From: Streptomyces sp. NBC_00341
GTDB taxonomy: Bacteria; Actinomycetota; Actinomycetes; Streptomycetales; Streptomycetaceae
DNA length: 64,000 bases
Assembly: GCF_041435055.1 (NCBI RefSeq)
Contig: NZ_CP108002.1
Span: 8,618,001 to 8,682,000 of the forward strand
Direction: 5' to 3'
Shown in pieces: positions 37,708 through 63,637 of the stretch. The first letter of the stretch is position 1, and each line of letters begins with the position of its first letter. A program made the translations under genes and the position numbers. A model generated the notes under the pieces. It made no database searches. It was not told the DNA's origin and saw only the letters and a list, made by a program, of their open reading frames with translations.

Positions 37708-37726
37708 CGGGTGATGGGTTCACCCG
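37708..37726. promoter_or_regulatory. Palindrome in the divergent promoter of the second PKS
   Basis: CGGGTGA (37708-37714) and TCACCCG (37720-37726) form a 7-bp inverted repeat with a 5-base spacer, between the methyltransferase-like gene and the PKS. CATACT (37737-37742) may be a -10 for the PKS. It looks like a repressor or activator site, but no cognate regulator is next to it. Confidence 0.45.
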
Positions 37727-37785
37727 GCTGCCGATCCATACTGGACCAACATCAACTACCGTCCGAAGAGGATGTGTTCGTCCCG

Positions 37786-49208: not shown

Positions 49209-51118
49209 GCTGTCTCCCAAGGTGACGCGCAGGCCGCACGGGCGCCGCGCACGGACATCGTCAGGGTCAGCCGCACGCGGGTCGCGGCCGGCAGTTCGAC
49301 GCGGCAGTACGGTCCGTCGACCGGCACCGGGGGCCCCTCGTCCACGCGCGCCGTTCGGATCAGGTGCTCGGCGAAGGCGCCCGCCTGTACGAGCACCGAC
49401 CGCGCCGACGGTCCCGTGTTCACCAGCTCCACCACGGTGTTGCCGGGCCGGATGTCCGTCACCAGCGCCGCCGTGTCGGACGGCAGCCCGGGGCGGCGCT
49501 CGGTGGCGTCGTGGTAGCGCAGGTGCAGATGGGTGAGGCCGCCGTTGTAGAGGATCTGCGGCGAACCGGTCGTCAGCTGGAGCAGCGCCTCCGTGACCAC
49601 CGGGTTGAGATGCTGCCAGTGGTGGATGCCCAGCGCGTCCGGGCCGGTCGCCGGGTCCAGCGGATCGCTCTCGATCGCCGCCACCCGCTCCGCGCTGGAG
49701 TCCAGGGCGGAGCTCAGCATCCGCTCGGGGAAGTCCGGATTGCGCCCGTGCAGGAACTCGTACCAGGGCTCCTCGTGTCCCGCCTCGTCCTTGATGCGCT
49801 GCGTGTGCACGGCCGACCAGTCCCAGCCGGAACCGGCCCGGAGCAGTTCCAGACGTTCCCGGTCGGACTCCTCGCGGCTGAAGTGCCACAGGGCCATGGG
49901 GAGCTGGGTGGGCATCACGGTGTGGTCGAACCAGCCGGAGTCGTTGTGCCGCTGCGGCACCATCAGGGTCCGCTCCGCGGTCATGGACCGCAGGTGCGGG
50001 TCCCAGCGCTCGCCCAGCGTTCCCCGTTCGTCAGGGCGGCGCTGCTCGGACTGGCGCAGCACCGCGTCCAGCGGGTTGCGGGCCAGGTCCAGATAGCCGG
50101 GCTCGCCGGTCAGGAACGCCGCGTTGGTGGCGCCCACGAGAGCGCCGGAGGCCACCGAGGACAGGCCGTGCGGCCAGGACCAGCCGTAGTGGCCGCCGTA
50201 CCAGCGGCCGTCCAGGTGCCCGCCGACGGTTCCGTCGAGCCCCACGTTGTCGGGCAGCACGTCACGCCCGGCGAGCCGCTCCTGCCAGGCGCCGGTGTAC
50301 GCGGCGACCCAGTCGGCGTACCGGTCCTCCCCGGTCAGCAGGCAGGCGTTGGCCGCCAGCCCGGTGGCCGCCAGGTTCACCAGGGTGTCGCCGCGCCCCA
50401 TCCGGTCCCACATCGCCCGGCCGTAGGCACGCGCCCGCTCCGGGTCGGCGGCCAGCTCGTCGAAGTGCGTGACGCCGTCGATGCCGTCCAGCGGCAGACC
50501 GTACGGGCGCAGCGCCAGGCTCCACGGGAAGAAGGCGTCCTCGTCCGCGAACCCCCAGCGCGGCCCCTCGGCACCGTTGTGCGGGGCGCGCACGATGCGG
50601 TGGACGGGGTCGTAGTTCGGGCCGTCCGGCAGGTAGAGGTCCGCGAACCGCGCGGCCAGCCGGCGCAGCTCGGGGTCGGCCGGGTCGGCCAGGCACAGGC
50701 CGTAGAAGAGCAGCAGGCCCTCGCCCTGGTGGAACCAGTCGTAGCCGCGCTCGTACCCGTCGGCCAGCATGTTCATCTCGGTGAGCTGCGCGGTCACCCC
50801 GCGCCAGTGCCGGCGTGCCGCGGGCAGCAGGTCTGCGCTGCCGCCGAGGAGGTACAGCGTCGGCCAGTTGAAGAACGGCTCGTAGAAGTCGTCCACACCG
50901 TCCCGGCCGTCCAGCCCGACCCCGAGCCGGTCACGGAAGATCAGCCGCCCGTCGCCCTCGGTGTAGCGGTCGGAGAACAGCCGCCACGCCTTGTCCAGCG
51001 CGGCGAACAACTCCCTTTCGAGCAGCGCCCACCGAGGCATCTCGGTCACCGGCCGGACCGCGTACAGCACCGGCCCGTGCGCCGGCGGCGCCCCGTTCGA
51101 CCTGTCGACCCCGCGCAT
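49205..51118 (-). CDS. Uncharacterised 637-residue protein, possible (alpha/alpha)-barrel carbohydrate enzyme
   Basis: I do not recognise this family. The protein is cytoplasmic by appearance, with no signal peptide. It is rich in tryptophan/aromatic and Gly-rich turns spaced at intervals like helical toroids: FYEPFFNWPTLYLLGG, GYDWFHQGEGLLLFYGL, DEDAFFPWSLALRPYG, GGHYGWSWPHGLSS. Two acidic clusters (VDDFYEP, DEDAFF) and HNDSGWFDH could be catalytic. The C terminus is beta-rich. ATG 51118 was chosen because GGGAG lies 6 bases upstream and because a longer start would run through the operator at 51172-51188. It is first in the operon with the fucose-dehydrogenase-type AKR and the FAD oxidoreductase, so it probably acts on the same sugar substrate. 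Confidence 0.6.
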   Translation of the reverse strand: MRGVDRSNGAPPAHGPVLYAVRPVTEMPRWALLERELFAALDKAWRLFSDRYTEGDGRLIFRDRLGVGLDGRDGVDDFYEPFFNWPTLYLLGGSADLLPAARRHWRGVTAQLTEMNMLADGYERGYDWFHQGEGLLLFYGLCLADPADPELRRLAARFADLYLPDGPNYDPVHRIVRAPHNGAEGPRWGFADEDAFFPWSLALRPYGLPLDGIDGVTHFDELAADPERARAYGRAMWDRMGRGDTLVNLAATGLAANACLLTGEDRYADWVAAYTGAWQERLAGRDVLPDNVGLDGTVGGHLDGRWYGGHYGWSWPHGLSSVASGALVGATNAAFLTGEPGYLDLARNPLDAVLRQSEQRRPDERGTLGERWDPHLRSMTAERTLMVPQRHNDSGWFDHTVMPTQLPMALWHFSREESDRERLELLRAGSGWDWSAVHTQRIKDEAGHEEPWYEFLHGRNPDFPERMLSSALDSSAERVAAIESDPLDPATGPDALGIHHWQHLNPVVTEALLQLTTGSPQILYNGGLTHLHLRYHDATERRPGLPSDTAALVTDIRPGNTVVELVNTGPSARSVLVQAGAFAEHLIRTARVDEGPPVPVDGPYCRVELPAATRVRLTLTMSVRGARAACASPWETA

Positions 51119-51171
51119 CCACGACTCCCGCCCTCGAACCGACATCAGGACCATCGGGCTCAGATAATCGC

Positions 51172-51188
51172 CCATCGATAGCCGATGG
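51172..51188. promoter_or_regulatory. GntR-type operator, divergent promoter of the 51118 operon and lactonase
   Basis: CCATCGATAGCCGATGG has perfect 6-bp arms (CCATCG/CGATGG) around a 5-base centre. On the plus strand TAGACT (51190-51195), a good -10, follows by one base. On the minus strand GATTAT lies close by. One site can control both directions. Confidence 0.7.
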
Positions 51189-51254
51189 CTAGACTCACCG
51201 GCATACGGCCGAGGTGTCAATACACCGGACCCGGCCGATGTGAGGAGGACGACC

Positions 51255-52079
51255 GTGATCGACTGCCATGTCCATGTGTGGGACCCGGCCGACGGGTTCC
51301 CGTGGATCCGCCCCGGAACACCACTGCACCGGCCCTACGCGGAAGCCGAGTTGGACGCGTCAGGGGCGGAGCTCGATCTGACCGGCGCGATCCTCGTGGA
51401 GGCCTCCCGCGGTGACGCCGGAGAGACGTACGCACTGCGGGAACTGCGCCGGAGGCGACCGGACCTGATCGCCGGCTACGTGGGCAACCTCCACGTCCAC
51501 GGCGACGCCGGACCCGGCGCGTTCCGTGCGCTCCTGGACGAGTCCGGCGACACCCGCCCCAATGGAATGCGCCTCGGCGGACCGGACTGGGCGAGCACCC
51601 CCGAGCCGGCCCGCGCCCTGGTCCCGGTGCTGGCCGAGACCGGCCTTGCCCTCGAACTCAACCTGTACCGCGGTGCGTTGAGAACCGCCGCTGAGGTGGG
51701 CGAACGACACCCCGAACTCGCGCTGGTCGTGGACCACTTGGGCAACCCGCCGCACCTGGCCACCGGTGATCCGGGGGAGTGGTACGCGGACCTCGAACGC
51801 GCCGCCCGGGTGCGTAACGTCCACGTGAAGATCTCCGGCCTGCTCACCCAGCAGCACGGCGTGCCCGACATTCAACTCGCGGACCTGGTAAGGCATGTGG
51901 TGGATGCGCTCGGTCCGGAACGCTGCCTGCTGGGTTCGGACTGGCCCATCTGCCTGACGCGCGGCACCCGCGCCGACTCGCTCGCCGCCTCGCGCACCGG
52001 ACTCGCACACCTCACCCCCGCGCAGAACCGGCACCTCTCGCGGACCACCGCGGAGCGGGTGTACCGGCTGCGCGGTTGA
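51255..52079 (+). CDS. Amidohydrolase-family sugar lactonase (L-fuconolactonase type)
   Basis: A 274-residue TIM-barrel metal hydrolase of the amidohydrolase-2 group (COG3618 type), which includes L-fuconolactone and L-rhamnonolactone hydrolases. Metal ligands are seen in VIDCHVHVWDP (HxH), LVVDHLGNPP (HLG) and LLGSDWPICL (the D of GSDWP). It would open the lactone made by the AKR at 48249. GTG 51255 follows GAGGAGGA at 6 bases. It is transcribed away from the operon that encodes its presumed partner, from the shared promoter at 51172-51195. Specificity for fucono- versus rhamnono-lactone is not decided by sequence alone. Confidence 0.8.
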   Translation: MIDCHVHVWDPADGFPWIRPGTPLHRPYAEAELDASGAELDLTGAILVEASRGDAGETYALRELRRRRPDLIAGYVGNLHVHGDAGPGAFRALLDESGDTRPNGMRLGGPDWASTPEPARALVPVLAETGLALELNLYRGALRTAAEVGERHPELALVVDHLGNPPHLATGDPGEWYADLERAARVRNVHVKISGLLTQQHGVPDIQLADLVRHVVDALGPERCLLGSDWPICLTRGTRADSLAASRTGLAHLTPAQNRHLSRTTAERVYRLRG

Positions 52080-52113
52080 CAGCCTTCGCGGCACCCTGAT
52101 TCGATTCTCTCGA

Positions 52114-52130
52114 TGATCGATAGGCGATGA
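52114..52130. promoter_or_regulatory. GntR-type operator before the CE7 esterase gene
   Basis: TGATCGATAGGCGATGA matches the locus consensus at 15 of 17 positions. It lies 50-66 bases before the esterase start and 35 bases past the lactonase stop. Confidence 0.65.
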
Positions 52131-52179
52131 CAGTGGCCCGCAGCCGGCCCCGCCGGCCCGACCGACGCGGAGATTCGAC

Positions 52180-53178
52180 ATGGCTCTCTTCGACCTGCCC
52201 CTCGACGAGCTGGAGAAATACCGTCCCGAGCTGCCCGAACCCGCGGACTTCGACGCGTTCTGGCAGGAGACACTCGCCCAGCAGGACCCGAACGGCCCGG
52301 CCGTCACCTGGACCCCCGCGCACAACGGCCTGGCCACCATCGACACGTTCGACGCGACCTTCGCCGGATACGGCGGCAGTCCCGTACGCGGCTGGCTGCA
52401 CCTGCCGGTGACCCGTACCGGACCGCTGCCCGCCGTCGTCGAGTACCTCGGCTACAACAGCGGTCGCGGGGCCCCGCACGAGAAGCGGCTGTGGGCGGAC
52501 GCCGGATACGCGCACTTCGTCATGGACACCCGGGGCCAGGGCGCCGAGACCCCCGACGCGGACCCCGCGTCCGGCGACATCGCCGCACCCGGCTTCCTCA
52601 CCCGCGGCGTGCTCGACCCGCGCCGCTACTTCTACCGGCGCCTGTACACCGACGCCGTACGCGCGGTGGCGGCCGTCCGCAGTCACCCGGAGGTCGACCC
52701 CGCCCGCGTCGTGGTCACCGGCACCAGCCAGGGCGGCGGCATCGCGCTTGCCGCCGGGGGACTCGTCCCCGACCTGGTCGCCGTCATGCCCGACGTGCCG
52801 TTCCTGTGTCACTTCCCGCGCGCCACGACGCTCACCGACAAGCCGCCGTACGCGGAGGTCGCCCAGTTCGTGAAGTCGCACCGGGAGCACGCGGCGACCG
52901 TCAGCCGCACCCTGGCCTATTTCGATGCGGTGAGTCTCGCGCGCCGGGCGAACGCCCCTACGCTGTTCTCGGTGGGGCTCATGGACCACATCTGTCCCCC
53001 CTCCACCGTGTACGCCGCGTTCAACCATTACGGCGCGCTGCGGAATGTGGATCAGGCCGACAAGGAGATACGGGCGTACCCGTTCAATGATCATGAGGGC
53101 GGCGGCCCCGCCCACGAAGTCGTCAAACTGGAATGGCTGGGGAAGCAGTGGGGAAAAGCACGCGCATTCCATCGATAG
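52180..53178 (+). CDS. CE7 acetyl esterase (acetylxylan esterase / cephalosporin-C deacetylase family)
   Basis: A 332-residue cytoplasmic alpha/beta hydrolase of carbohydrate esterase family 7, which removes O-acetyl groups from imported oligosaccharides. Family marks: FDAFWQETL, VEYLGYNSGRG for the oxyanion region, RGQGAETPD, the nucleophile elbow VTGTSQGGGIALAA, the aspartate in MDHICPPSTVYAAFNHY, and the histidine in NDHEGGG. All three catalytic residues are present and the length is normal. It suggests that the substrate glycan is acetylated. Its stop codon lies inside the operator of gntR. Confidence 0.88.
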   Translation: MALFDLPLDELEKYRPELPEPADFDAFWQETLAQQDPNGPAVTWTPAHNGLATIDTFDATFAGYGGSPVRGWLHLPVTRTGPLPAVVEYLGYNSGRGAPHEKRLWADAGYAHFVMDTRGQGAETPDADPASGDIAAPGFLTRGVLDPRRYFYRRLYTDAVRAVAAVRSHPEVDPARVVVTGTSQGGGIALAAGGLVPDLVAVMPDVPFLCHFPRATTLTDKPPYAEVAQFVKSHREHAATVSRTLAYFDAVSLARRANAPTLFSVGLMDHICPPSTVYAAFNHYGALRNVDQADKEIRAYPFNDHEGGGPAHEVVKLEWLGKQWGKARAFHR

Positions 53179-53185
53179 GCGATGA
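53169..53185. promoter_or_regulatory. GntR-type operator over the gntR promoter
   Basis: CCATCGATAGGCGATGA, the consensus form, spans the esterase stop codon. TATAGT (53191-53196), a strong -10, begins 5 bases later. The site therefore fills the -35 to -10 interval of gntR, a clear layout for autorepression. Confidence 0.75.
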
Positions 53186-53234
53186 GCGCGTATAGTGTCC
53201 CAACTGGCCTCCCCCAACGCAGGAATGGGAATTC

Positions 53235-53969
53235 ATGGCATCGAACGCGTCGGCGGGATTCGACTCCACACTGGCCACCAACAAGGACCGGTTCCGAAAG
53301 GCCCTGATCTCCGACCAGGTGTACGAGCTGCTGCGGCAGGCCGTCGTCGACGGTGACCTCGCCCCGGGCGACCGCGTGGTCGAGTCCGAGATCGCGCGAC
53401 GGCTCGGGGTCAGTCAGGCGCCCGTCCGGGAGGCGGTGAAACAGCTGGCCCGGGAGGGCCTGCTGATGCATGTGCCGCGTCGCGGGCATTTCGTCGTCGA
53501 GATCTCGGAACAGGACGCGGAATACGCGCGCCAGGTGCGCGAGCCGCTCGAACGGCTCGCGGCTCAGCTCGCCGCGCAGCACATCACGAAGGATCAGCTG
53601 TCCGAACTCGACGCGCTCGTCGAGCGGATGCGCAAAGCCGTGACGGTCAAAGACGTGGGTGTCTTCAGGGACGCCGACATCGAGTTCCACACACTGGTCA
53701 GCCAGGCCGCCGGAAATCCGTTCCTGGAGCGGATGTGGGAGGTCATCGAGCCCAGCTTGCGCACCCTGCGGGCCATTTCCGATCCGCTGTTCGCCGGCGA
53801 CTGGTCCGCGATGGCCGACGAGCACGGCCGCCTGGTCAGACTGCTGCGCGACGGGGACGGCGAGGGGGCGGCCGTCGCGTTCGCCGACCACGCGGCGGGC
53901 CGGGGTCCTGTTCCGGACGCCCGCGCCGCGAAGAAGACGCGCGCGAAGGCCGCCGCAGCCCGCGACTGA
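53235..53969 (+). CDS. GntR-family (FadR/FCD) transcriptional regulator of the sugar locus
   Basis: A 244-residue regulator. The N-terminal winged helix (LAPGDRVVESEIARRLGVSQAPVREAVKQLAREGLL) contains SEIARRLGVSQAPVREA, the GntR recognition helix. The C-terminal all-helical FCD ligand domain has the metal-binding set seen in the family: DADIEFH, DEHGRL, FADHAAG. FCD regulators usually bind an organic acid or sugar-acid intermediate and leave DNA when it is present. The 17-bp operator lies over its own promoter and before the other transcription units of the locus, so this gene is the best candidate for the regulon repressor. A perfect hairpin follows its stop. Confidence 0.88.
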   Translation: MASNASAGFDSTLATNKDRFRKALISDQVYELLRQAVVDGDLAPGDRVVESEIARRLGVSQAPVREAVKQLAREGLLMHVPRRGHFVVEISEQDAEYARQVREPLERLAAQLAAQHITKDQLSELDALVERMRKAVTVKDVGVFRDADIEFHTLVSQAAGNPFLERMWEVIEPSLRTLRAISDPLFAGDWSAMADEHGRLVRLLRDGDGEGAAVAFADHAAGRGPVPDARAAKKTRAKAAAARD

Positions 53970-53977
53970 TGTACCCG

Positions 53978-54021
53978 GCATGGGGAAGGCCCGGACCGAA
54001 AGGTCCGGGCCTTCCCCATGC
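53978..54021. terminator. Perfect bidirectional terminator hairpin
   Basis: A 20-bp uninterrupted stem (for example CATGGGGAAGGCCCGGACC at 53979-53997 against its complement at 54002-54020) closes with a GAAA tetraloop. It lies 9 bases past the gntR stop and 10 bases past the end of the convergent beta-helix gene, so it ends both operons. Confidence 0.85.
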
Positions 54022-54030
54022 GCGGGAACG

Positions 54031-56052
54031 TCAGCGCCGCGCGCCCGCCGTCCACTTCGGGGCGCCGTACTGGTAGGCCCCCAGGCTGGGCGCCGGGTCC
54101 GTGGAGCCGTCATTGACGCCCGGCAGCGCGATCGCCGCGTTCCTGGCCGGAGAGCCCGCAGCCGGCCGGTAGTCGTGGGCGGTCGCGTCGACGAAGAGCG
54201 GGTCGGTCTCCGCGGGGAGGTTGTTCGACATGACGAGACCGCCGTCGGTGGCGCCGTCCATACCGGCGATCTTCCCGATGTTGTTGTAGATCTTCGTGCC
54301 CGTCGACTGGTCGGGTCCCTTCACGTAGAACAGCGTCATGCCGCCCGTATTGTTGTAGACGCCGTTGTCGTGCGAGCCCGTCCCCAGACCGTTGAGCATC
54401 ACCGTGCCCTCGCGGTTGCCCCAGCCCACGTTGTTCGCGATCACCAGGTCGCTCTGGCCGTTGTCCGCGTAGACACCGGAGATGCCGAACGTGGAGGAGG
54501 TCGTCTTCGGCGCCGGGTCGTGCAGCACGTTGTGGTCGATGGAGGTGCCCATCATGTCCGCGCTGCAACAGGTGTAGACCGCGGCGACGTCCAGGCTCAG
54601 CCGGGCGTAGGCCGAGATGTCGTTGTACGCGATGACGTCCTTGCCCGGGTCGAGACCCGCCACGCTGTTCCACTGGAGGTTGATCCCGCTGCGTCCGACC
54701 CGGGAGATGGTGTTGTGGGTCACCGTCTGGCTGTTGCCCTGCACGGCGATACCGGCCGCGTAGGTGCCCATGTAGTCGACGTCGTGGATGACGTTGTCGC
54801 TCGCCGTGTTGTTCTGTCCGCGCAGCGCGATGCCGTTGCCCGCGCTCAGCGACAGATCACTGTTCACGACCTTGTTGCCGGTGCCGTCCACGATGATGCC
54901 GCTGTCACCGACGCCGCGCGTGACCGTACTGCCGCAGTCCGTCGCGCCCTTGGTGATGTCCGTGTAGTGCGACAGGTACGTGCCCTTGATGCCGTCGAGC
55001 GTGACGCCGGTGGTGGTGGCGCCCGTCTTGACCGTCGAGGCGAACAGGCCGACGCCGGCGACCGTGGTGTGGCTGGTGTTCGTCAGATCGAAGCCCAGGG
55101 TGCGGCGCTTGGCCTCGACGGTGTGGGTGGCGGGGTCGTCGGTGCTGTACACGTACAGGCGATGGGCGGCGGGGTCGTAGAACCAGGTGCCGGGGTGGGC
55201 CAGTTCGCCGATCTTCCCGGCGAGCGCGTACCGGGTCTCCTGCGGGACCACCTTGTGCACGCACGGCGGCGCCGCGTCGAGGGTCACCGAGCCGGCCGTC
55301 GAGCCGGTCACCTTGGCGGTGGCGGAGACGTACCAGTAGCCGGTGAGGGCCCGCGCACCGTCCCAGTAGCCCGCCGGGCGGGTCTGGGCCGGGTCCGCGA
55401 TCGTGGCGTCGGCGCTTCCGGCACCCGCGTACTGGAGTACGGGGTCCAGCGGGTCGAGGCCCGGGTACGGCCACTGGGCCTCGACGTCCATCGCCCTGTC
55501 GGTGAACACCTGCACGGTGCTGACGTCGCTGCCCAGGTCCACATCCGTGGAGTAGACGTGTCCGGCCGCGACGGCGTCGGCGAAGTCCGAGCCCGGCGCG
55601 TACGGATCGCTCTGGCCGATCGCGGTCACGTCCGCGGCGGTGACGGGCTGCCAGCCGGTCACCCGAGAGGCGCCGCTCACCGTCACCTGCGCGCCGGGTG
55701 CGGCCCGGTAGGTGATCGGCGCCTGCGCCGTGCCGGAGCGGGCGGGCACGACCGTCTCCTCGTACGTCCCCGAGTTGATCAGGCACGTGTCGCCCGGCTG
55801 CATGAGATCGGCGCAGCGCTGGATGTGGCGGAACGGTGCGGCCGAGGTGCCGGCCGCCGTGTCCTGGCCGTTCGTCGCCACGTAGTACGTCTGCCCGTCC
55901 TGGGCCGCGGCCGGGTGGGCGCCGGCCATGACCATGCACAGGGCCGCGAACATGGTGGCGGCCTGCCACGGCCGGGTACGCGGATGCGGGGCGCGTGCCC
56001 TCCACGGCGTCGGTGGGAGCGGTGGTACCGGAGTTGTTGGGGGGATCGGCAT
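54031..56052 (-). CDS. Secreted parallel beta-helix protein, probable polysaccharide-active enzyme
   Basis: A 673-residue exported protein. After a Pro-rich N terminus and a hydrophobic signal (MFAALCMVMAGAHPAAA), it opens with YYVATNGQDTAAGTSAAPF and LMQPGDTCLINSGTYEE, the start of many right-handed beta-helix lyases and glycosidases. A central module (about 150-330) is followed by a long series of helix coils with Asn ladders (NSDLSLSAGNGIALRGQNN, ASDNVIHDV, NNVGWGNREG). I cannot assign a CAZy family; a pectate/chondroitinase-B-like lyase or galactosidase are both possible. It is last in the importer operon (59254 to 54031). Extracellular cleavage feeding the importer is the natural inference. 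Confidence 0.7.
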   Translation of the reverse strand: MPIPPTTPVPPLPPTPWRARAPHPRTRPWQAATMFAALCMVMAGAHPAAAQDGQTYYVATNGQDTAAGTSAAPFRHIQRCADLMQPGDTCLINSGTYEETVVPARSGTAQAPITYRAAPGAQVTVSGASRVTGWQPVTAADVTAIGQSDPYAPGSDFADAVAAGHVYSTDVDLGSDVSTVQVFTDRAMDVEAQWPYPGLDPLDPVLQYAGAGSADATIADPAQTRPAGYWDGARALTGYWYVSATAKVTGSTAGSVTLDAAPPCVHKVVPQETRYALAGKIGELAHPGTWFYDPAAHRLYVYSTDDPATHTVEAKRRTLGFDLTNTSHTTVAGVGLFASTVKTGATTTGVTLDGIKGTYLSHYTDITKGATDCGSTVTRGVGDSGIIVDGTGNKVVNSDLSLSAGNGIALRGQNNTASDNVIHDVDYMGTYAAGIAVQGNSQTVTHNTISRVGRSGINLQWNSVAGLDPGKDVIAYNDISAYARLSLDVAAVYTCCSADMMGTSIDHNVLHDPAPKTTSSTFGISGVYADNGQSDLVIANNVGWGNREGTVMLNGLGTGSHDNGVYNNTGGMTLFYVKGPDQSTGTKIYNNIGKIAGMDGATDGGLVMSNNLPAETDPLFVDATAHDYRPAAGSPARNAAIALPGVNDGSTDPAPSLGAYQYGAPKWTAGARR

Positions 56053-56120
56053 TCCAGGGTCCTCTTCTCGGTCCTTCTGGGGTCCTTCAGCTGTCCTTCG
56101 GGGGGATGCGCCGGGCCGGG

Positions 56121-57050
56121 TCAGCCCTTCACGGCGCCCACGGTGAGGCCGCTGATGATGTGGCGCTGCATGTAGATGAAGAAGATGACCACCGGGGCGA
56201 TGGCGAGCAGCAGGTTCGGGAAGACCTTCGTGAGGTCCGTCGAGTACTGGCTGATGCCCGCGTAGATCGCCGTGGTCACCGTGTAGTGCCCGGACGACGG
56301 GCTCAGCAGGATCTGCGGGCTCACGAAGTCGTTCCAGATCCCGATGGAGTTCAGGATCAGTACGGTGACGACCGCCGGCCGCATGAGCGGGAAGATGATG
56401 GTCCAGAACGTCCGGTACCGGCCCGCTCCGTCGATCGTCGCCGCGTGGTCGATGTCCACCGGGATGGTGCGGATGAATCCGACGAACAGGAAGATGCTCA
56501 CGGGCAGCGTCGAGGCGACGTCGTGTGCCACCAGACCGGTCACCGAGTTCGCCAGGCCGATCTCCCGGAGCACGTAGATCACGGGAATGATCACGGCGGC
56601 GCCCGGGATGAACGTCCCTGCCAGGAAGTACAGCATCACCAGCTGTGTGCGCTTCTTCAGACTGCGGGCGATGGCGTACGCCGCCGGGCCCGCCAGCAGG
56701 ATGCACAGCACGTCCACCATCACGACGAGGAAGAGCGTGAAGCCGTAGCCCCCAATGACGTTGAACTGCGGACTGGTCACCGCGGCCGACAGGTGCTTGA
56801 GCGTCAGCCCGCTCAGCGGGATGCCGAACGGGTTGTCCAGGATGTCCTGCTGCGACTTGAACGCGTTCACGAGGAGCAGGTACACCGGCACCATCATGAC
56901 GACGAGCAGCCCGCCGAGCATGATCCAGCGCAGCGGTGAGCGGCTTTCACCCTGATCGGTGCGGCCCGGCAGCCCGTCGGGAGCCGACGGCGGCCTCGCC
57001 TTGGCCTTGTGGGCTTTCGCCTCTCGGGCCTTTGCCTCCATTACGACCAC
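56121..57050 (-). CDS. ABC sugar transporter permease, MalG type
   Basis: A 309-residue inner-membrane permease with six predicted spans and the conserved cytoplasmic loop near the C terminus (EAATIDGAGRYRTFWTIIFPLMRP, here seen as HAATIDGAGRYRTFW) that docks the ATPase. FIPGAAVIIPVIYV and LFVGFIRTIPVDI are typical of the MalG/CUT1 branch. The N-terminal 25 residues are unusually rich in Ala/Lys. GTG 57050 is favoured because GGAG lies 6 bases upstream; 57053 and 57041 are alternatives. It pairs with the permease immediately upstream. Confidence 0.88.
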   Translation of the reverse strand: MVVMEAKAREAKAHKAKARPPSAPDGLPGRTDQGESRSPLRWIMLGGLLVVMMVPVYLLLVNAFKSQQDILDNPFGIPLSGLTLKHLSAAVTSPQFNVIGGYGFTLFLVVMVDVLCILLAGPAAYAIARSLKKRTQLVMLYFLAGTFIPGAAVIIPVIYVLREIGLANSVTGLVAHDVASTLPVSIFLFVGFIRTIPVDIDHAATIDGAGRYRTFWTIIFPLMRPAVVTVLILNSIGIWNDFVSPQILLSPSSGHYTVTTAIYAGISQYSTDLTKVFPNLLLAIAPVVIFFIYMQRHIISGLTVGAVKG

Positions 57051-57059
57051 CACTGGCTC

Positions 57060-58025
57060 CTAACCTGTCGCAGCTTGATCTTGGCGGTTGCGCAGCGCCG
57101 TCACGACGAGGGCGAGCACGGCGGACACGATCATGAGGAAGACCGCCTGGGACGTCGCGTAACCGACCTTCGTGCCCTCGAAGGAGCGGGCCAGAATGAG
57201 GTAGGTGAACGTCTGCGTGGATCCGGCCGGGCCGCCGCCGGTGAGGCTGACGATGATGTCGTAGGCGCGGATGAGGCCCACCAGGTTGAGGATCGTCGCC
57301 ACGGTCACCACCGGAGCGATCATCGGGACGACGATCCGCAGGTTCGTCTGCCGCTTCGTCGCCCCGTCGATCGCCGCGGCCTCGAGGAGCTCGGCGGGCA
57401 CCGTCTGCAACGCCGCGACGAACAGCACCACGTTGAACCCGAACCCGGCCCACACGATGACGGCGATCAGGGAGATCAGCGCCATCTTCTCGTCGAACAG
57501 GAAGCCGATCGGCTCGATGTCGAACTTGGCGAGCGTGTTGTTGATGGCCCCGTTGGTGCCGAGGATGGCCGCCCACAGATAGCCGAGGACCAGGGCGCTG
57601 ATCACATGCGGGAAGTAACCCACGGCCCGGAAGAAGGAGTTGGCACGCGAACGGCCCTTGAGGATCAGGGCGTAGATGAGACCGAGACCGACCATGAACA
57701 CGGTGCCGGACACGGCGATGACCGCGGTCACGTACCAGGCCTGCGAGGAGCTGGGGTCGTCGAACAGGTGCCGGTAGTTGTCCAGCCCGATGAACGAGAC
57801 CGAAGAGAAGCCGTCCCAGTCGGTGAGGCTGAGATAGATCGCCACACCGACCGGGACAACCGTCAGCACGGTGTACAGCAGGACGGCCGGCCCCATCAGG
57901 CCGAGGGAGACCGCCGCGGCGCGCACCTGGGCGCTGCGCCGGCCGGCCTGCGAGGGGGGAGCGGGGGTCACCGGGGCGGTGTCGTTGAGCGGCCCCGGCC
58001 GCTTCAGCGCTGCGAGTTCCACCAC
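57060..58025 (-). CDS. ABC sugar transporter permease, MalF type
   Basis: A 321-residue permease of the CUT1 (MalF/UgpA) type. The N terminus is cytoplasmic and Pro/Ala-rich; six spans follow, starting at LMGPAVLLYTVLTVVPVGVAIYL. The ATPase-docking loop is EAAAIDGATKRQTNLRIVVPMI. The start overlaps the end of the binding-protein gene by about 22 bases. The ATPase is missing from the locus; in Streptomyces one shared ATPase (MsiK) serves many CUT1 importers, which explains the absence. Confidence 0.88.
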   Translation of the reverse strand: MVELAALKRPGPLNDTAPVTPAPPSQAGRRSAQVRAAAVSLGLMGPAVLLYTVLTVVPVGVAIYLSLTDWDGFSSVSFIGLDNYRHLFDDPSSSQAWYVTAVIAVSGTVFMVGLGLIYALILKGRSRANSFFRAVGYFPHVISALVLGYLWAAILGTNGAINNTLAKFDIEPIGFLFDEKMALISLIAVIVWAGFGFNVVLFVAALQTVPAELLEAAAIDGATKRQTNLRIVVPMIAPVVTVATILNLVGLIRAYDIIVSLTGGGPAGSTQTFTYLILARSFEGTKVGYATSQAVFLMIVSAVLALVVTALRNRQDQAATG

Positions 58026-59254
58026 TTGTCCAATCCGCCGGCGGCGTCCTCGGGAGAGGTGCCCGTGTACAGGGACTGGACCTGCTTGTTCAGTTCGTCA
58101 CTGAACCCGGCGATGGGCTGGTTCGCACCGGACTTCACGATCACCGAGGGGGTCTTGTCCAGGACCTTCTGCACGGAGGTGCCGAGGCTCGACATCTTGT
58201 AGCTGAACCCGGCACGCAGGTTGCCGTCGGCGGCGAGCTGGCTCTTGATCGCTGCCGGGTCGGTGACGGCCCACTTGACCAGGTCCGTCGCCTCGGCCTT
58301 GTGCCGGGACTTGTCGATCACGACGTACGGGTTGGAGATGTTGCCGAATTGGCCTGACGGGTAGGCGCCGTCGGTCGGCATGCTGAAGACGCCGATCTCG
58401 TCGCTCTTCTTGGCTTCGTCCGCGGCGGGTACGAAGTACGACCCCATGATGTACATGGCGGACTTCCCCTTGAGGAAGGCCGTCTGCCCGTCGGCGTACG
58501 TGAGACCGAGCGCGCTCTTCTTCAGGTAACCGGCGTCGATCCACTTCTTGTACTGCCCGAAGTAGTCGACGTAGCCGCTGTCCGCGAAGGAGGCCTTGCC
58601 GGCGATGCGCTGGGCCGTCCACTTCGGCTCTGCCGTGAGCACGCCCGCGTCGGCCATCATGGAGAACTGGCTGCCGGTCACCCACTGCCCGGCCGTCTGC
58701 AGCGGTTCGTATCCGGCCTTCTTCAACTTCCCCATCGCGGCGGTGAACTGGTCCAGGGTGCGGATCGAGCCCGCGTCGACCCCGGCCTTGGTGAAGGCCT
58801 GCTTGTTGTAGAAGACCAGCGACTGGATCTGCTCACCGACACCCACCACATACCGCTTGCCACCAAGGGCGTACTCGTCGGCCAGCGGCGTCTTGGCCGT
58901 CCACGGCTGGTCCGAGAGGTCGGCGAAGAGGGACTCGGTCTCGGTGGTGGGGGTGATCTGCTGGGCGACGTCCGGCGGGTCGCCGGCCGCCAGGTCCTGG
59001 GTCAGCTTCGCGTTCGCCGAGATCGTGCCGGTCAGTTCCAGATCGACCTTCACCTTGGGATGGGTGCGCTCGTACCGGGCGAAGAGGTCGTTCCAGTACT
59101 TCTCCGTCAGGTTCGGCGTGATGTTCACGATGACGCGGAGGGTGGTGGTGCCCCCCGCGCCCTCGTCGGACGTACCGCCGCCGCAGGCGACGGCCGAGGC
59201 CATCACCAGAGGAGCGGCGGCGAAGGCGCAAACACGGCGCCAGACTGCTTTCAT
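58004..59254 (-). CDS. ABC sugar-binding lipoprotein
   Basis: A 416-residue extracellular solute-binding protein of family 1 (CUT1). The N terminus ends in a lipobox, AAPLVMASAVAC, with the cysteine to be lipidated, so it is tethered outside the membrane. The mature part has the usual bilobal features (VFYNKQAFTKAGVD, MYIMGSYFVP, and WAVTDPAAIKSQ). It should capture the oligosaccharide or 6-deoxy sugar released outside. It is the first gene of the importer operon and is preceded by two copies of the locus operator, at 59283-59299 and 59442-59458. Confidence 0.88.
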   Translation of the reverse strand: MKAVWRRVCAFAAAPLVMASAVACGGGTSDEGAGGTTTLRVIVNITPNLTEKYWNDLFARYERTHPKVKVDLELTGTISANAKLTQDLAAGDPPDVAQQITPTTETESLFADLSDQPWTAKTPLADEYALGGKRYVVGVGEQIQSLVFYNKQAFTKAGVDAGSIRTLDQFTAAMGKLKKAGYEPLQTAGQWVTGSQFSMMADAGVLTAEPKWTAQRIAGKASFADSGYVDYFGQYKKWIDAGYLKKSALGLTYADGQTAFLKGKSAMYIMGSYFVPAADEAKKSDEIGVFSMPTDGAYPSGQFGNISNPYVVIDKSRHKAEATDLVKWAVTDPAAIKSQLAADGNLRAGFSYKMSSLGTSVQKVLDKTPSVIVKSGANQPIAGFSDELNKQVQSLYTGTSPEDAAGGLDKWWNSQR

Positions 59255-59282
59255 CGGACACGCTCCGTTGCGTAGTCGTGAA

Positions 59283-59299
59283 TAATCGATAGCTACTGT
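59283..59299. promoter_or_regulatory. Degenerate GntR-type operator close to the importer operon
   Basis: TAATCGATAGCTACTGT keeps the left half and centre of the consensus (ATCGATAGC) but has lost most of the right arm. It is 29-45 bases before the binding-protein start. It may be a weak site or an overlap with the promoter. Confidence 0.4.
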
Positions 59300-59441
59300 C
59301 GGTCGGGAAGTGCGGTTCGGAAATGCTGCGTGGTGGAGTGGGGTGCCGCGTCGCGCCGGGCGGGGAGGCCGGCGGGCGTCGGCGGGCGGTCGGCGGCCAC
59401 GGACCCTGGAGATACGGGGTCCGGACGCCTTCGCTCTTCGC

Positions 59442-59458
59442 TAATCGTCTATCGATTG
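59442..59458. promoter_or_regulatory. GntR-type operator upstream of the importer operon
   Basis: Read on the minus strand, CAATCGATAGACGATTA follows the locus pattern, with 5-bp perfect arms (AATCG/CGATT). It lies about 190 bases before the binding-protein gene and 55 bases past the end of the upstream lyase gene. The intergenic 259 bases contain nothing else recognisable. Confidence 0.6.
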
Positions 59459-59513
59459 CTGATGCTATGGCGGGCATCCCACAATGTTCAAGAGTGCTGC
59501 CGTAACCTGTTGT

Positions 59514-61451
59514 TCAACCGGCCGGCTCCCACCGCACCACGGCCCTCCCGGCGTTGCCCGGAGCCCGCACGGTCAGCGTGAGACGCGTCAGGAACGCACC
59601 CCAACTCGCCCTGAGCAGGGGATCGTCGAGTTCCACATGCTCGGTCGAGGCGGCGGCGAAGGCCGCGTCCCAGTGCATGACGACTCCAGAACCCTCCGCT
59701 GTCACCCGCGCCCAGCCGTCCCCCAGCTCGACGTGACCGGACAGCAGGTGCCGGAGCCGTACATACGGGAGCCGCCCCCGCCAGGTGTCCTCGACGGCCA
59801 CGTACGCGGCGGCCGCCCCGGTCGAACGCTCCAACCGCACCGTCCTGTTCCAGCTGGTCAGCGGACCGGCCGGATAGGCGCCGCTCAATTCCGCGCTCAG
59901 GATGCTCCGCTCGCCCTCGCGGCGCACGGCCACCTCGCGGGCGGTGAACTCCCGCCCGGGGGACTGCGGGTGTCCCGGCTCGGGAACGTTGTGCCACGCG
60001 CTCCGGAAGGGCCACGCCGTATACCGGTCGGGCCCGAACGTCTGCGTGGTGTACCGAGGCCGGCCCGCGTCGACGACCAGCGGCCGGCCGTCCACCGCCA
60101 CCCAGTACGAACCGACGTCGAGGTGGTTGTGGTGCTCGCCGTTGTGGCCCGCCTTCACCGCGACCGTCAGCCCCCGGGTGGACGCCGCCTCCTGACGCGC
60201 CACCAGGACCTCAAGACGAGGCAGCCACACCTCGGCGGCCAGCCACGGGGAGCCCTCGTCCGGAGCGGACTGCGCGGCGACCGCCCCGCACCACCGCGGA
60301 TCGGCGAGCGCCGCCAGCGCCCGGCCGAGGCCCGCCCGGGGCGGCGCGGGGTCGCCCTCCTGCCGGGCGCCCGCCACCGCGTGCGCCGACGTCTCGGGCC
60401 GGCCCAGGCGCACACCCCACCGGTACGGCACGTGCCAGGGCCGGTCACCGGACAGCCGCGGCGGGGCATCGCCCACGTTCACGTACCAGCTCCCGCCCAG
60501 ATGCATCCGCTGCGGGTACCGCAACAACTCCGCCAGCAGGGGGAGTTCCCGTGCGTCGAGTGCGGGGCCGCCCACTCCGGCGAGCAGATCGAGTACCTCC
60601 AGGACCCGGCACGCCCCCGCCCACCAGTACGCGATCCCCTCGTCCACGCCCCCGTCGTCCGGGAGGACCGCGACGTAATGGTCGAGCCCCTCCACCACGA
60701 GCCGCACCAGGCCGGCCCGCCGCGCCTCGTCCTCGCACAGCAGCAGCGCGCACGCCAGTACCGCACTGTGGATCCACGGATTCCAGTTGTTGGCGTTGCC
60801 GTCGGCGCCGATCCACCGCCAGTCCCGCACCCGCTCGAACGGGTCCAGGACCCGCAGATCCACCTCCCGCCGCAGCCGCCGACGGAGCCCGGGGGCCCGC
60901 CGCTCCAGATGAGGCCCCAGCACGTGGTCCGCCCACGCGAACAGCGCCGCCACCTCGGCCGCCCCCAGATCCAGATACGGCTCGTCCGCATCGGGCAGCA
61001 CCTCGCCGCGCGCCGCCGTGAACCGGTCGTGCGAGGCCCAGCACCAGGTACTCGCCTCCGCGAACCGCACGAGACCGTCCACCGCGGCGTCCAGATACGG
61101 GCACACCTCGCCGGCGTCGGTCGCATCGGCCACCTCGCCGGTCAGCACCGCCGCGAGGACCAGCCGGGAGACCCGCTCCTGCAACTCCCAGGCCCGGTCC
61201 TCATACGCCCCCCGGTCCCCGTCGCGCGCCGCGCGGGCCCAGGCCCCCGCGGTCAGCCGCGGCTCGGGGCGCTCCAGTTCGGCCCGCGCACCGGCGATCA
61301 CCCGCTCGCGCACGGGGTGCGGCACCCTGTCCCAGACCTCCCGGCACGTCACGTCCGGTACTCCGACCCGGCCCGCCGGATCGCCCAGCAGTCCTGCCAG
61401 CTCAGGGCCGAGCGCCGACCGGAACGACGCCCCCAGAATCCCCGTCGTCAT
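59514..61451 (-). CDS. Heparinase II/III-like polysaccharide lyase
   Basis: A 645-residue protein with the two-part layout of the heparinase II/III superfamily: an N-terminal (alpha/alpha) toroid (WRWIGADGNANNWNPWIHS, GIAYWWAGACR) and a C-terminal anti-parallel beta domain beginning with HHNHLDVGSYWVAVDGRP and VVDAG, the family hallmark. Catalysis would be beta-elimination next to a uronic acid in an imported oligosaccharide. No signal peptide is present, so it works inside the cell. ATG 61451 follows GGGGAGG that lies in the end of the GH29 gene 4 bases away, so the two are co-translated. Substrate not assignable; some relatives act as hydrolases. Confidence 0.75.
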   Translation of the reverse strand: MTTGILGASFRSALGPELAGLLGDPAGRVGVPDVTCREVWDRVPHPVRERVIAGARAELERPEPRLTAGAWARAARDGDRGAYEDRAWELQERVSRLVLAAVLTGEVADATDAGEVCPYLDAAVDGLVRFAEASTWCWASHDRFTAARGEVLPDADEPYLDLGAAEVAALFAWADHVLGPHLERRAPGLRRRLRREVDLRVLDPFERVRDWRWIGADGNANNWNPWIHSAVLACALLLCEDEARRAGLVRLVVEGLDHYVAVLPDDGGVDEGIAYWWAGACRVLEVLDLLAGVGGPALDARELPLLAELLRYPQRMHLGGSWYVNVGDAPPRLSGDRPWHVPYRWGVRLGRPETSAHAVAGARQEGDPAPPRAGLGRALAALADPRWCGAVAAQSAPDEGSPWLAAEVWLPRLEVLVARQEAASTRGLTVAVKAGHNGEHHNHLDVGSYWVAVDGRPLVVDAGRPRYTTQTFGPDRYTAWPFRSAWHNVPEPGHPQSPGREFTAREVAVRREGERSILSAELSGAYPAGPLTSWNRTVRLERSTGAAAAYVAVEDTWRGRLPYVRLRHLLSGHVELGDGWARVTAEGSGVVMHWDAAFAAASTEHVELDDPLLRASWGAFLTRLTLTVRAPGNAGRAVVRWEPAG

Positions 61452-61455
61452 CCGC

Positions 61456-62730
61456 CTAGACCTCCCCGTTCTCAGCGGCGCCGGGGTCCTCGTCCAGTTC
61501 CAGTTCGATCACCGGCAGCAGGACATCGGGCCGGGCCGTCGGCAGGGTCAGGGTCAGCGTCCCCGCCGGTTCGCCCGGGGGCGTCATGTTGGTGTGCTCG
61601 TGTCCGGCGCCGTCCACTTCGTGGAAGCCGATCTCCGAGCCGTCGTGCAGGAACTGCGCGTACCTGACCCGCCCCGCCAGTCCCGGAAGGTGTACGTGCT
61701 TGAGCGGCCAGGCGAGCAGATGAAGGTACAGATGACGGCCGCGCCGCGTGTACAGGGCGTTCGCCGGCGGGGTCAGTCCGCTCGGCCCCGCCCCGTGCAC
61801 GGAGCGCGAGTGCGGCACCGTCCAGGAACCGATCGCCGCCAGGGTCTCCCGCGCCCGCGGGTCAAGGGCGCCCCGCCCGGTCGGCCCGACGTTCAGCAGG
61901 AGGTTCCCGCCGCAGGCCACCGACTGCACCAGCATCCGCACCAGCAGCGCGGGATCCTTGTAGTCGTGGTTGTCGCGGTCGTACCCCCACGAACCGTTGA
62001 GCGTGTGGCAGGCCTCCCACCGCACCGGCACACCGTTGCGCTCCAGCGGCCGCTCGGGCTGGTACTGCTCCGGGGTCACGTAGTCGCCGGGTATCCCGAG
62101 CCGGTCGTTGACCAGAATGCCCGGCTGCAGGGCGCGGACCGTGGACATCAGCTCCTGCGCACCCCAGTCCGCGGAGGTTTTCGACGGATAGGTGAAGTCG
62201 AAGAAGAGGAGGTCGATCTGCCCGTACCCGGTCAGCAACTCCCGCACCTGCCCATGGAGGTAGTCGCGGTAGGCGTTCATGTCACGCGGCTCGTCCGCGG
62301 CCTCGGTGGAGCGCAGCGGATGGTGCTCGTCGACCGTGAAGCCGGGGTGATGCCAGTCGAGCAGTGAGTAGTACAGGCCCACCCGGAGCCCCTCCTCCCG
62401 CATCGCCGTCACGAACTCCCCGACCAGGTCACGCCCGTTCACCCGGACCGAGCTGTAGTCGGTCAGCTCCGACTCGAACAGGCAGAATCCGTCATGGTGC
62501 TTGGCGGTGAGCACCGCGTACCGCATGCCCGCCTCCTTCGCGGCCCGTGCCAGCGCCCGCGCGTCGAAGAGGTCCGGGTCGAAACGGCTCAGATAGCGGT
62601 CGTAACTCTCCTGGTCCATCAACTCCCGGCTGCGCACCCACTCATGACGTGCCGCCAGACTGTAGAGGCCGAAGTGGACAAAGAGCCCGAAGCGTTCGGC
62701 TTCGAACCAGCCAGGTGACGTGGTGGTCAC
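61456..62730 (-). CDS. GH29 alpha-L-fucosidase
   Basis: A 424-residue retaining alpha-L-fucosidase. The N terminus WFEAERFGLFVHFGLYSLAARHEW, seen here as RFGLFVHFGLYS, with AKHHDGFCLFES and GLYYSLLDWHHP are family hallmarks. The nucleophile aspartate is expected in IDLLFFDFTYPS, and ILVNDRLG and GGNLLLNVGPTGRG complete the site. There is no signal peptide, so it should cut fucose from imported oligosaccharides. It starts the operon with the lyase, divergent from the RraA-like gene; operator copies lie between them. Confidence 0.92.
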   Translation of the reverse strand: MTTTSPGWFEAERFGLFVHFGLYSLAARHEWVRSRELMDQESYDRYLSRFDPDLFDARALARAAKEAGMRYAVLTAKHHDGFCLFESELTDYSSVRVNGRDLVGEFVTAMREEGLRVGLYYSLLDWHHPGFTVDEHHPLRSTEAADEPRDMNAYRDYLHGQVRELLTGYGQIDLLFFDFTYPSKTSADWGAQELMSTVRALQPGILVNDRLGIPGDYVTPEQYQPERPLERNGVPVRWEACHTLNGSWGYDRDNHDYKDPALLVRMLVQSVACGGNLLLNVGPTGRGALDPRARETLAAIGSWTVPHSRSVHGAGPSGLTPPANALYTRRGRHLYLHLLAWPLKHVHLPGLAGRVRYAQFLHDGSEIGFHEVDGAGHEHTNMTPPGEPAGTLTLTLPTARPDVLLPVIELELDEDPGAAENGEV

Positions 62731-62758
62731 GAAAAAACTCCTGACACATTGACAGTAC

Positions 62759-62768
62759 TAATCGATTA
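62759..62768. promoter_or_regulatory. Possible second GntR half-site near GH29
   Basis: TAATCGATTA is a perfect 10-bp palindrome sharing ATCGAT with the locus operator, 29 bases before the GH29 start. It may be an auxiliary site for the minus-strand promoter. Confidence 0.4.
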
Positions 62769-62779
62769 ACTGTTATCTA

Positions 62780-62796
62780 CCATCGATAGGCGATGA
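62780..62796. promoter_or_regulatory. GntR-type operator of the GH29/RraA divergent promoter
   Basis: CCATCGATAGGCGATGA is identical over all 17 bases to the site in front of gntR, more than 9.5 kb away. It is 32-48 bases before the RraA-like start. Confidence 0.75.
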
Positions 62797-62827
62797 TGTC
62801 ACTGGCGCTGTGTACGGAGGCAAAAGC

Positions 62828-63637
62828 ATGAACCCGACCCGGGATCACGGAGCACCGTCGACAGAGGAGATCCGGACGTACGCGTCGATGCGGGCACCGA
62901 TCCACACCTCGGAGTACGTGCGGCCCACCGCACGCATGGTGGAGGCCCTCGGCGAGGTCAGCGCGGCCACGGCCTGCGCGAAGCTCCACCAGATGGGAAT
63001 CACAAGGACGTTCATCGACGGCCCGGTGCCGCTGCACCGGGAGCCCGACGTGCAGATCACCGGAGGTGCCGTCACCCTCCAGTTCCTGCCGAGGCGCGAG
63101 GACGTCTTCAACGGTGCCGAGCAGGAGGACGCCGAACGGGAGACGGCGCTGTGGAAGGTGCTCGAATCCATCCGCCCCGGCGACGTGCTCGTGGTGTCGG
63201 CCCAGGGCAGCCACTACACCGGCTGCCTGGGCGACATGCTGGTGCGCTACTTCAAGTTGAAGGGCGGTGCGGGGATTGTCGTTGACGGGCGGATCCGGGA
63301 CGCGGCCCGGGTGCGCGCGCTCGGCGTCCCCATCTGGTGCACGGGCGTCACCCCGCACTACGCCTCGCAGACCGAACTCTTCCCGTCCGCGTTCAACGTC
63401 CCGGTGGGGGTCGGCGGCGTCCTGGTGGCCCCCGGCGACCTTATCGTGGCCGACGAGGACGGGGCCGTCGTGGTCCCGCAGCACAGCGCGGTGCCGCTGG
63501 CCGAGGACTCGATCCGTCATCAGGACCGGGAGGAGTTCGCGCGCCGCCGCCTCGACGAGGGCGCCCGGCTGTCCGACTACTACCCGCTCACGGCTGAGAC
63601 GTTGCCCGAGTTCCTGGCCGCCCACCCCGCCACCTGA
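62828..63637 (+). CDS. RraA-like protein, possible 4-hydroxy-2-oxo acid aldolase
   Basis: A 269-residue RraA-fold protein. The family includes class II 4-hydroxy-4-methyl-2-oxoglutarate aldolases as well as RNase E inhibitors; in a sugar locus an aldolase or decarboxylase acting on a 2-keto-3-deoxy acid is more likely. The active-site block is LGDMLVRYFKLKGGAGIVVDGRIRD, where GDML, the arginine of DGRIRD and its final aspartate match the aldolase motif. ATG 62828 follows GGAGG at 7 bases. It could finish the fucose route by cleaving 2-keto-3-deoxy-fuconate. This is inference; the usual dehydratase step is not encoded nearby. Confidence 0.75.
   Translation: MNPTRDHGAPSTEEIRTYASMRAPIHTSEYVRPTARMVEALGEVSAATACAKLHQMGITRTFIDGPVPLHREPDVQITGGAVTLQFLPRREDVFNGAEQEDAERETALWKVLESIRPGDVLVVSAQGSHYTGCLGDMLVRYFKLKGGAGIVVDGRIRDAARVRALGVPIWCTGVTPHYASQTELFPSAFNVPVGVGGVLVAPGDLIVADEDGAVVVPQHSAVPLAEDSIRHQDREEFARRRLDEGARLSDYYPLTAETLPEFLAAHPAT

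Follow-up and report, generated by a model that had tools for sequence, protein, structure and literature searches.

Many regulators of the FadR subfamily of GntR proteins recognize operators of the form TKGT-N2/3-ACMA, a consensus that is common though not universal, according to PMC4494728. Among them, LldR, DgoR, ExuR and GlcC combine a GntR winged helix with an FCD domain and act through local palindromic sites at their own and neighboring promoters, in pathways of the sugar-acid type (named in PMC4494728). Other members lie off the consensus, such as NanR with its direct repeats and BioR with TTATMKATAA (PMC4494728); repeated half-sites in NanR are also described in PMC8012715. Here we analyze a polysaccharide-use locus of Streptomyces sp. 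NBC_00341, which encodes a GntR/FCD regulator at 53235 and carries a set of repeated sites, named O1 to O7. It spans 45.9–63.6 kb of the window, the whole stretch of 64,000 nucleotides under study (G000:C1:8618001-8682000 of a 9.06 Mb genome), as judged from open reading frames (ORFs) and profile scans of their translations. We consider it very probable, at roughly 0.88, that these sites are the operators of the regulator, which would repress the locus, its own gene included, until a sugar acid releases it from the DNA.

The locus shares with LldR, DgoR, ExuR and GlcC the domain architecture, the palindromic sites at its own and neighboring promoters, and the sugar-acid-type pathway. It differs from them in that the inner GT/AC bases of the operator are absent and that Gln and Ser stand in place of FadR Arg-45 and Arg-35. 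Like NanR and BioR it is off the consensus, and like NanR it has repeated half-sites. In contrast to both, the half-site is ATCG/CGAT, arranged as an inverted ATCG-N5-CGAT with an extra half-site. The kind of system is known, as the mode of control is an ordinary one and only the binding site is slightly unusual. No description of the operator variant, the third half-site or the regulon content was found in a literature search that included five motif strings and covered titles and abstract openings, RegPrecise and most subscription papers lying outside its scope.

Shape of the operator and its predicted reader

A first-pass annotation of the window described a 17-bp operator linking five promoters. 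The 17-mer CCATCGATAGGCGATGA is indeed exact at 53169-53185 and 62780-62796, and the close variants reported at 51172, 52114 and 59442 carry 2, 2 and 3 mismatches, respectively. When up to three mismatches are allowed, the window holds six matches against 0.11 expected in shuffles, and none of 100 shuffles reached six; the sixth match is an overlapping reverse-strand copy at 51165. The stretch 51172-51188 (CCATCG-ATAGC-CGATGG) is the 6-5-6 inverted repeat that had been recognized there. The repeated operator therefore stands; its length does not, since a 13-bp core ATCG-N5-CGAT, mostly ATCGATAGNCGAT, with an extra half-site describes it better.

The extra half-site is visible in 69 distinct exact sites, all from related loci, in which a left-hand ATC occupies positions -7 to -5 (A in 46, T in 55 and C in 53 of the 69, counted per base). 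The full site can be written as ATC(G)-N3-ATCGAT-N3-CGAT, that is, as three half-sites seven bases apart or as two overlapping ATCG-N5-CGAT palindromes. Both palindromes are complete in O1, where the cores at 51167-51179 (-) and 51174-51186 (+) overlap and make up three half-sites. Weaker extra half-sites at 7-12 nt from the center occur in many GntR groups (PMC4494728, section 17), and the ATC seven bases upstream of the core conforms to this family habit.

The regulator scores 63.3 bits with Pfam GntR (cut-off 27) and 100 bits with FCD (cut-off 24.3), which places it in the FadR (FCD) subfamily of the GntR family. The metal-site residues of FCD domains are Asp/His/His/His, and Asp148, His152, His197 and His219 of the regulator align with those of 3sxy and 3fms. 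When ATCG-N5-CGAT is set in register with TKGT-N3-ACMA, the outer T/A and the G/C pair agree, whereas the second base and the inner T/A differ. TKGT-N2/3-ACMA was found at none of the seven sites, each taken with 15 bp on either side. From an ungapped placement on the FadR sequence, we take Ser-51 and Gln-61 of the regulator to occupy the positions of FadR Arg-35 and Arg-45. Gln-61 is kept in orthologues down to 41% identity, and Ser-51 is Ala in L087, a more distant locus described below. In FadR, Arg-35 and Arg-45 make specific contacts with G (Table 1 of PMC4494728). The residue changes may have caused the change of motif.

The position of the sites suits a repressor. O1 and O3 abut -10-like boxes, as the first-pass annotation had remarked of several sites: TAGACT at 51190-51195 follows O1, which ends at 51186, and TATAGT at 53191-53196 follows O3, which ends at 53183. 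The distance from the end of the site to the facing start codon is 53 bp for O1, 51 bp for O2, 51 bp for O3 and 15 bp for O7. O3, exact in the window, supplies the operator at the regulator's own promoter that belongs to a local autoregulated regulon. Sites do precede the transcription units, but the count of five promoters has to be revised, as the seven sites would serve about seven transcription starts.

Co-occurrence of the sites and the regulator

The genome of 9.06 Mb contains five exact copies of ATCGATAGNCGAT, and all five fall within this locus. Between 0.14 (third-order Markov model) and 0.94 (fifth-order) were expected genome-wide from models trained on the window and extrapolated to the whole genome. 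The possibility that the motif is simply frequent at random, which the first-pass annotation had proposed to examine by a genome-wide scan, thus fails for ATCGATAGNCGAT (5 against 0.14). The looser ATCGATNNNCGAT occurs at 14 genome positions (15 strand hits), six in the locus and eight outside, with about 12 predicted in all at third order. Outside the locus it is near chance level, and its clustering is what is remarkable.

Within the genus, at least one exact copy of ATCGATAGNCGAT was found in 31/295 genomes, and two or more copies within 20 kb on one contig in 9/295. Eight of these nine (G000, G059, G070, G075, G103, G116, G149 and G179) have four or five clustered sites each, and G246 has two; a single additional site lies elsewhere in each of G070 and G179. 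At E<=1e-60 the regulator was present in 9/295 genomes, the same nine. A reversed control pattern matched in four genomes, once in each. The probability of the overlap is 2e-17 under independence of the genomes, a value that overstates the case because the genomes are related. Homologues of the 671-aa protein of the locus provide a natural control. They occur in 33/295 genomes. Nine of these have the regulator and operators: eight, the window's included, in which the homologue shows at least 76% identity, and G246 (51%). The remaining 24 (one a partial match) are without this regulator at E<=1e-60. The four of these 24 that were read (L131-L134) have other GntR proteins (29-33%) and no exact site, with one one-mismatch site in 3/4. 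Similarly, the stretches of thirteen distant GntR relatives (27-39%) contained no exact site and two one-mismatch matches.

In the more distant L087, from G246, the regulator is 49-52% identical and two exact sites lie before the beta-helix gene and between the regulator and solute-binding protein (SBP) genes. A phylum scan at E<=1e-50 found the regulator in 2/396 genomes, G000 and G543. The G543 locus (L135), from another family and with a regulator of 41% identity, resembles the window's in gene set, and one-mismatch sites precede its gntR, SBP and beta-helix genes; these sites are only suggestive because their frequency in surrogates is similar.

Conservation and alternative explanations

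A scan of genome contigs yielded at least 13 regulator orthologues of 71-94% identity, from eight Streptomyces, Amycolatopsis dendrobii, two Nonomuraea, one Catenulispora metagenome-assembled genome (MAG) and one Hamadaea MAG. Adding the window and five loci of the genus scan (L081, L083-L086) gives 19 compared loci, 18 of them beyond the window and from five genera. Rows for each site were chosen by their match to the core. The core is exact in 17/17 loci examined for O1 and in 19/19 for O7. For O2 it is exact in 17/18 rows; the L050 and L056 rows are the regulator's own site, and L050 also has its own exact O2. For O4 it is exact in 17/19 rows, with the L056 row, a reverse reading of O7, discounted. 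O3 is exact in 11/19 loci, the window included.

The weaker copies that had been placed at 59283 and 62759 differ from the 17-mer by more than three mismatches in the window. Better matches stand at the orthologous positions. O5 is exact in 0/19 rows and has 9/10 core bases in L050, L052 and L056. O6 reaches 10/10 in L083 and 9/10 in L045, L046, L049 and L081; four more 9/10 rows are reverse readings of O7 and were not counted. In L053 and L054 the fucosidase/RraA block and its site are together relocated to the opposite side of the locus. Two sites before the regulator persist in L084, where the esterase gene was not detected.

Taken together, we favor the regulon reading because all five genomic copies of ATCGATAGNCGAT lie in the locus, the sites and the regulator overlap in the same 9/295 genomes, the cores of O1, O2, O4 and O7 are exact in all or nearly all rows, and O5 and O6 are stronger in orthologues. 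It is further favored because the block in L053 and L054 moved with its site, and because L131-L134 and the thirteen distant relatives lack exact sites. Finally, a site stands at the regulator's own promoter in 11/19 loci, -10-like boxes abut O1 and O3, and the FCD Asp/His/His/His is kept. The GntR/FCD regulon of the first-pass annotation is borne out at the sequence level, by the nine genomes, by matching promoters in the 18 further loci and by the scarcity of the motif elsewhere. We propose that a regulator dimer would occupy each core, over the start site or within the -35/-10 region, and would thereby block transcription, including that of its own gene. The third half-site may take a further subunit or a second dimer, which would make binding cooperative. 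Enzymes of the locus would produce an acidic sugar through oxidation by the aldo/keto reductase (AKR) and subsequent lactone opening, and this product would bind the FCD metal site. The ligand-bound regulator would then leave the DNA, and depolymerizing enzymes, ABC importer and catabolic enzymes would come on together.

Several observations weigh against this proposal. Another 22 genomes carry sites without the regulator, 20 of them with one site and two (G091 and G187) with two unclustered sites, and the genomes compared are related rather than independent. The one-mismatch sites of L135 are no commoner than in surrogates (5 vs 4.5). The choice of rows by core match favors the core. Autoregulation is not shared by all loci, as O3 is degraded in 8/19. 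Within Streptomyces, O5, O6 and O7 say little, since the left flanks of O5 and O6 are better conserved than their cores and the whole of O7 is conserved. Binding by the regulator, the ligand and the substrate are all predicted, and repression is preferred over activation from the position of the sites.

Other explanations fit part of these data. The repeats might be functionless and owe their retention to common descent or to a recent transfer of the locus, which the patchy occurrence of the locus (9/295 genomes) and the conserved flanks at O7 and to the left of O5 and O6 would allow. In 14 Streptomyces loci, however, core conservation is 0.99 at O2 and 1.00 at O4, whereas the 20 bases that follow the core on the right average 0.58 and 0.55, respectively. 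Moreover, non-orthologous promoters carry one core, and the core is still present in loci whose regulators have 49-79% identity, so that we regard a functionless origin as very improbable. It is also improbable, though less so, that the sites are real but bound by another transcription factor, with the GntR protein acting elsewhere or only modulating. One operator does occur at promoters of several kinds, and binding by the regulator is a prediction. Yet the regulator is the sole transcription factor recognized among the locus genes scanned, it accompanies the clusters in 9/9 genomes, and the site lies at its own promoter in 11/19 loci. Somewhat less remote is the alternative that the regulator binds these sites and activates, with the ligand as co-activator, as some FCD proteins are activators; it is nevertheless unlikely, since -10-like boxes directly follow O1 and O3, which places both sites in the -35/-10 region, where a bound protein is expected to hinder the polymerase.

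It is about as unlikely as activation that the regulon also includes distant targets outside the locus, reached through weaker sites. Off-locus ATCGATNNNCGAT places and one-mismatch sites exist, one of them near an ABC/LacI locus (L093:7841), and an exact off-locus site is common to G070 and G179. Against this, ATCGATNNNCGAT occurs at its predicted frequency, and the site common to G070 and G179, which was set aside, lies in front of a subtilase gene. One candidate looked promising at first, a one-mismatch site ahead of an SBP gene (L095:8740), but it is kept in 0/12 orthologous loci. No conserved off-locus target was found among the candidates traced to orthologues, a set from which L001, L004, L008, L088, L089 and L090 were absent.

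The remaining off-locus places were sorted as follows. The ATCGATNNNCGAT places L003, L005 and L007 are covered by high-GC3 ORFs, and L006 (L095:8045) lies inside a GH92 ORF; these were rejected, as was L091, one of four further one-mismatch sites, which lies within an ORF. The aceE-linked site L002, which belongs to another FCD regulator, is discussed below. At L093:7841-7853 (L089), ATCGATAGCTGAT lies about 110 bp ahead of a gene for an ABC permease, which is itself preceded by a LacI-type regulator gene. One ATCGATAGACGAT each is present in a homologous element of six Streptomyces genomes (L015, L017, L019, L022, L025 and L033), apart from this locus.

Genes of the locus, its probable substrate and a possible helix code

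The genes and sites are listed in Table 1. The first-pass annotation joined all units from 45.9 to 63.6 kb into one regulon. This holds in general, but the FAD-dependent oxidoreductase could belong to it only as a downstream gene, and a relative of it was found in 2/19 related loci, several stretches stopping short of its place. In the 19 related loci used for gene content (L087 included and the window excluded, with some stretches ending early), RraA, SBP and the regulator are present in 19/19. The AKR, the amidohydrolase, the 671-aa protein and the permeases are each present in 18/19, the beta-helix protein in 17/19, the fucosidase in 14/19, the esterase in 11/19 and the heparinase-like enzyme in 6/19. 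A 2733-aa ORF (37711-45912) adjoins the locus on the left and, judging its translation by eye, reads as an adenylation/ketosynthase polyketide synthase; no operator was found within it in the 17-mer scan of the window. The next gene on the right encodes a DUF5954 protein and looks unrelated.

Table 1. Predicted operators and genes of the polysaccharide-use locus (window coordinates)
Feature	Position	Strand	Remarks
FAD-dependent oxidoreductase	45887..48181	-	PF12831; last gene of leftward unit, without own site
Aldo/keto reductase (AKR)	48249..49226	-	nearest solved structures are L-galactose dehydrogenases
Conserved protein without Pfam/NCBIfam match	49205..51118	-	longest ORF 671 aa, to 51220; homologues put start at 51118
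O1 double operator	51165..51188	.	between divergent 671-aa-protein and amidohydrolase genes
Amidohydro_2 protein, lactonase-like	51240..52079	+	
O2 core	52116..52128	+	upstream of AXE1 esterase gene; third half-site TCG on left
AXE1-type acetyl esterase	52180..53178	+	
O3 core	53171..53183	+	over regulator's own promoter; overlaps end of AXE1 ORF
GntR/FCD regulator, 244 aa	53235..53969	+	predicted binder of O1-O7
Beta-helix protein (DUF1565 / Pel9A-like)	54031..56100	-	start approximate
Two ABC permeases	56121..58025	-	BPD_transp_1 in both
ABC solute-binding protein (SBP)	58004..59254	-	SBP_bac_1
O5 weak operator	59285..59297	+	30 bp upstream of SBP gene; 7/10 core bases
O4 distal core	59444..59456	-	upstream of ABC-transport operon; ATC third half-site
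Heparinase II/III-like enzyme	59514..61451	-	closest to PL33 structures; optional in locus
GH29-like alpha-L-fucosidase	61456..62730	-	in 14/19 related loci
O6 weak operator	62754..62766	-	upstream of fucosidase/heparinase-like operon; 7/10 core bases
O7 core	62782..62794	+	upstream of RraA-like gene; ATC third half-site
RraA-like protein	62810..63637	+	candidate 2-oxo-acid aldolase

The locus most likely provides secreted enzymes, ABC import and oxidation for a polysaccharide, of which the simplest candidate would be a fucose- or L-galactose-bearing, uronate-containing, acetylated polymer. The oxidative catabolism of L-fucose and L-galactose offers a comparison. The locus resembles it in having the AKR, a lactonase-like amidohydrolase, an RraA-like protein that could be a 2-oxo-acid aldolase, and an alpha-L-fucosidase. 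It differs in that no sugar-acid dehydratase was recognized among the locus genes scanned and in that the amidohydrolase falls far below the cut-off of the L-fucono-1,5-lactonase model NCBIfam NF052480 (74.9 bits, cut-off 400), outside that family as modeled. The heparinase-like enzyme is related to polysaccharide lyase family 33 (PL33), matching 8r75 with E 3.4e-64 over residues 29-631, and PL33 substrates include glycosaminoglycans and gellan, according to PMC11848413. FadR-subfamily proteins bind carboxylic acids (PMC4494728); since the regulator also keeps Asp/His/His/His, the simplest inducer would be an aldonate or a keto-acid.

The 671-aa protein (49205-51220) gave no Pfam, NCBIfam or PDB sequence match. 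Its predicted model combines an alpha/alpha barrel with a C-terminal beta-sandwich (pLDDT 76.8). Fold searches with this model returned a common fold class only, and no family was assigned because several hydrolase and epimerase folds tie. Homologues of about 52% identity adjoin other GntR genes in Streptomyces.

A second GntR/FCD gene of this genome precedes an aceE-like gene at L094:6664-7501 (G000:C1:2247663-2248500), with the perfect palindrome GATCGATCATCGATC between the two genes. This palindrome, with the same half-sites as the operators of the locus, is the off-locus match ATCGATCATCGAT. The aceE-linked regulator has the helix VSQTPVR, is 29% identical to the locus regulator and is present in 39/41 genomes. 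Thirty loci of this regulator were fetched and the helix was located in 29; TTTGATCGATCATCGATC lies downstream in 28/29 of these Streptomyces loci, aceE itself having been checked only in this genome. It is possible, if doubtful, that FCD regulators with a helix VSQxPVR, in which Gln replaces the G-reading Arg-45 of FadR, recognize ATCG/CGAT with the usual spacing and in some cases as three half-sites, and that the two 29%-identical regulators share this code. Of 36 FCD genes in the genome, 30 gave loci; the aceE locus brought the number read to 31, and the helix was identified in 27 of them, that of L170 being doubtful and three pairs being mirror-image duplicates. ATCG-N5-CGAT occurs nearby for 2/3 Gln helices against 0/24 others, a partly circular comparison, as it was the motif that had first drawn attention to both positives. 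A larger set that also took in eight non-Streptomyces genomes (86 loci, aceE locus left out, helix in 74) gave 1/4 for Gln against 1/70 for the others. We keep the rule as a hypothesis because these checks are small and partly circular. If true, it would allow the operators of many unassigned FCD proteins to be predicted from their helices. The mirror-image pairs comprise three FCD regulator genes at G000:C1 42935-51109 and 186423-194597, near one chromosome end, and apparently represent an inverted duplication.

For a conserved actinobacterial polysaccharide-use locus, the analysis predicts an operator and the content and boundary of the regulon, which are useful for annotation. A conserved protein of up to 671 aa that matches no Pfam or NCBIfam model is thereby tied to a defined pathway. 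For the FadR subfamily, it offers a clear case of an FCD regulator with a predicted operator off the subfamily consensus, alongside changed DNA-reading residues.

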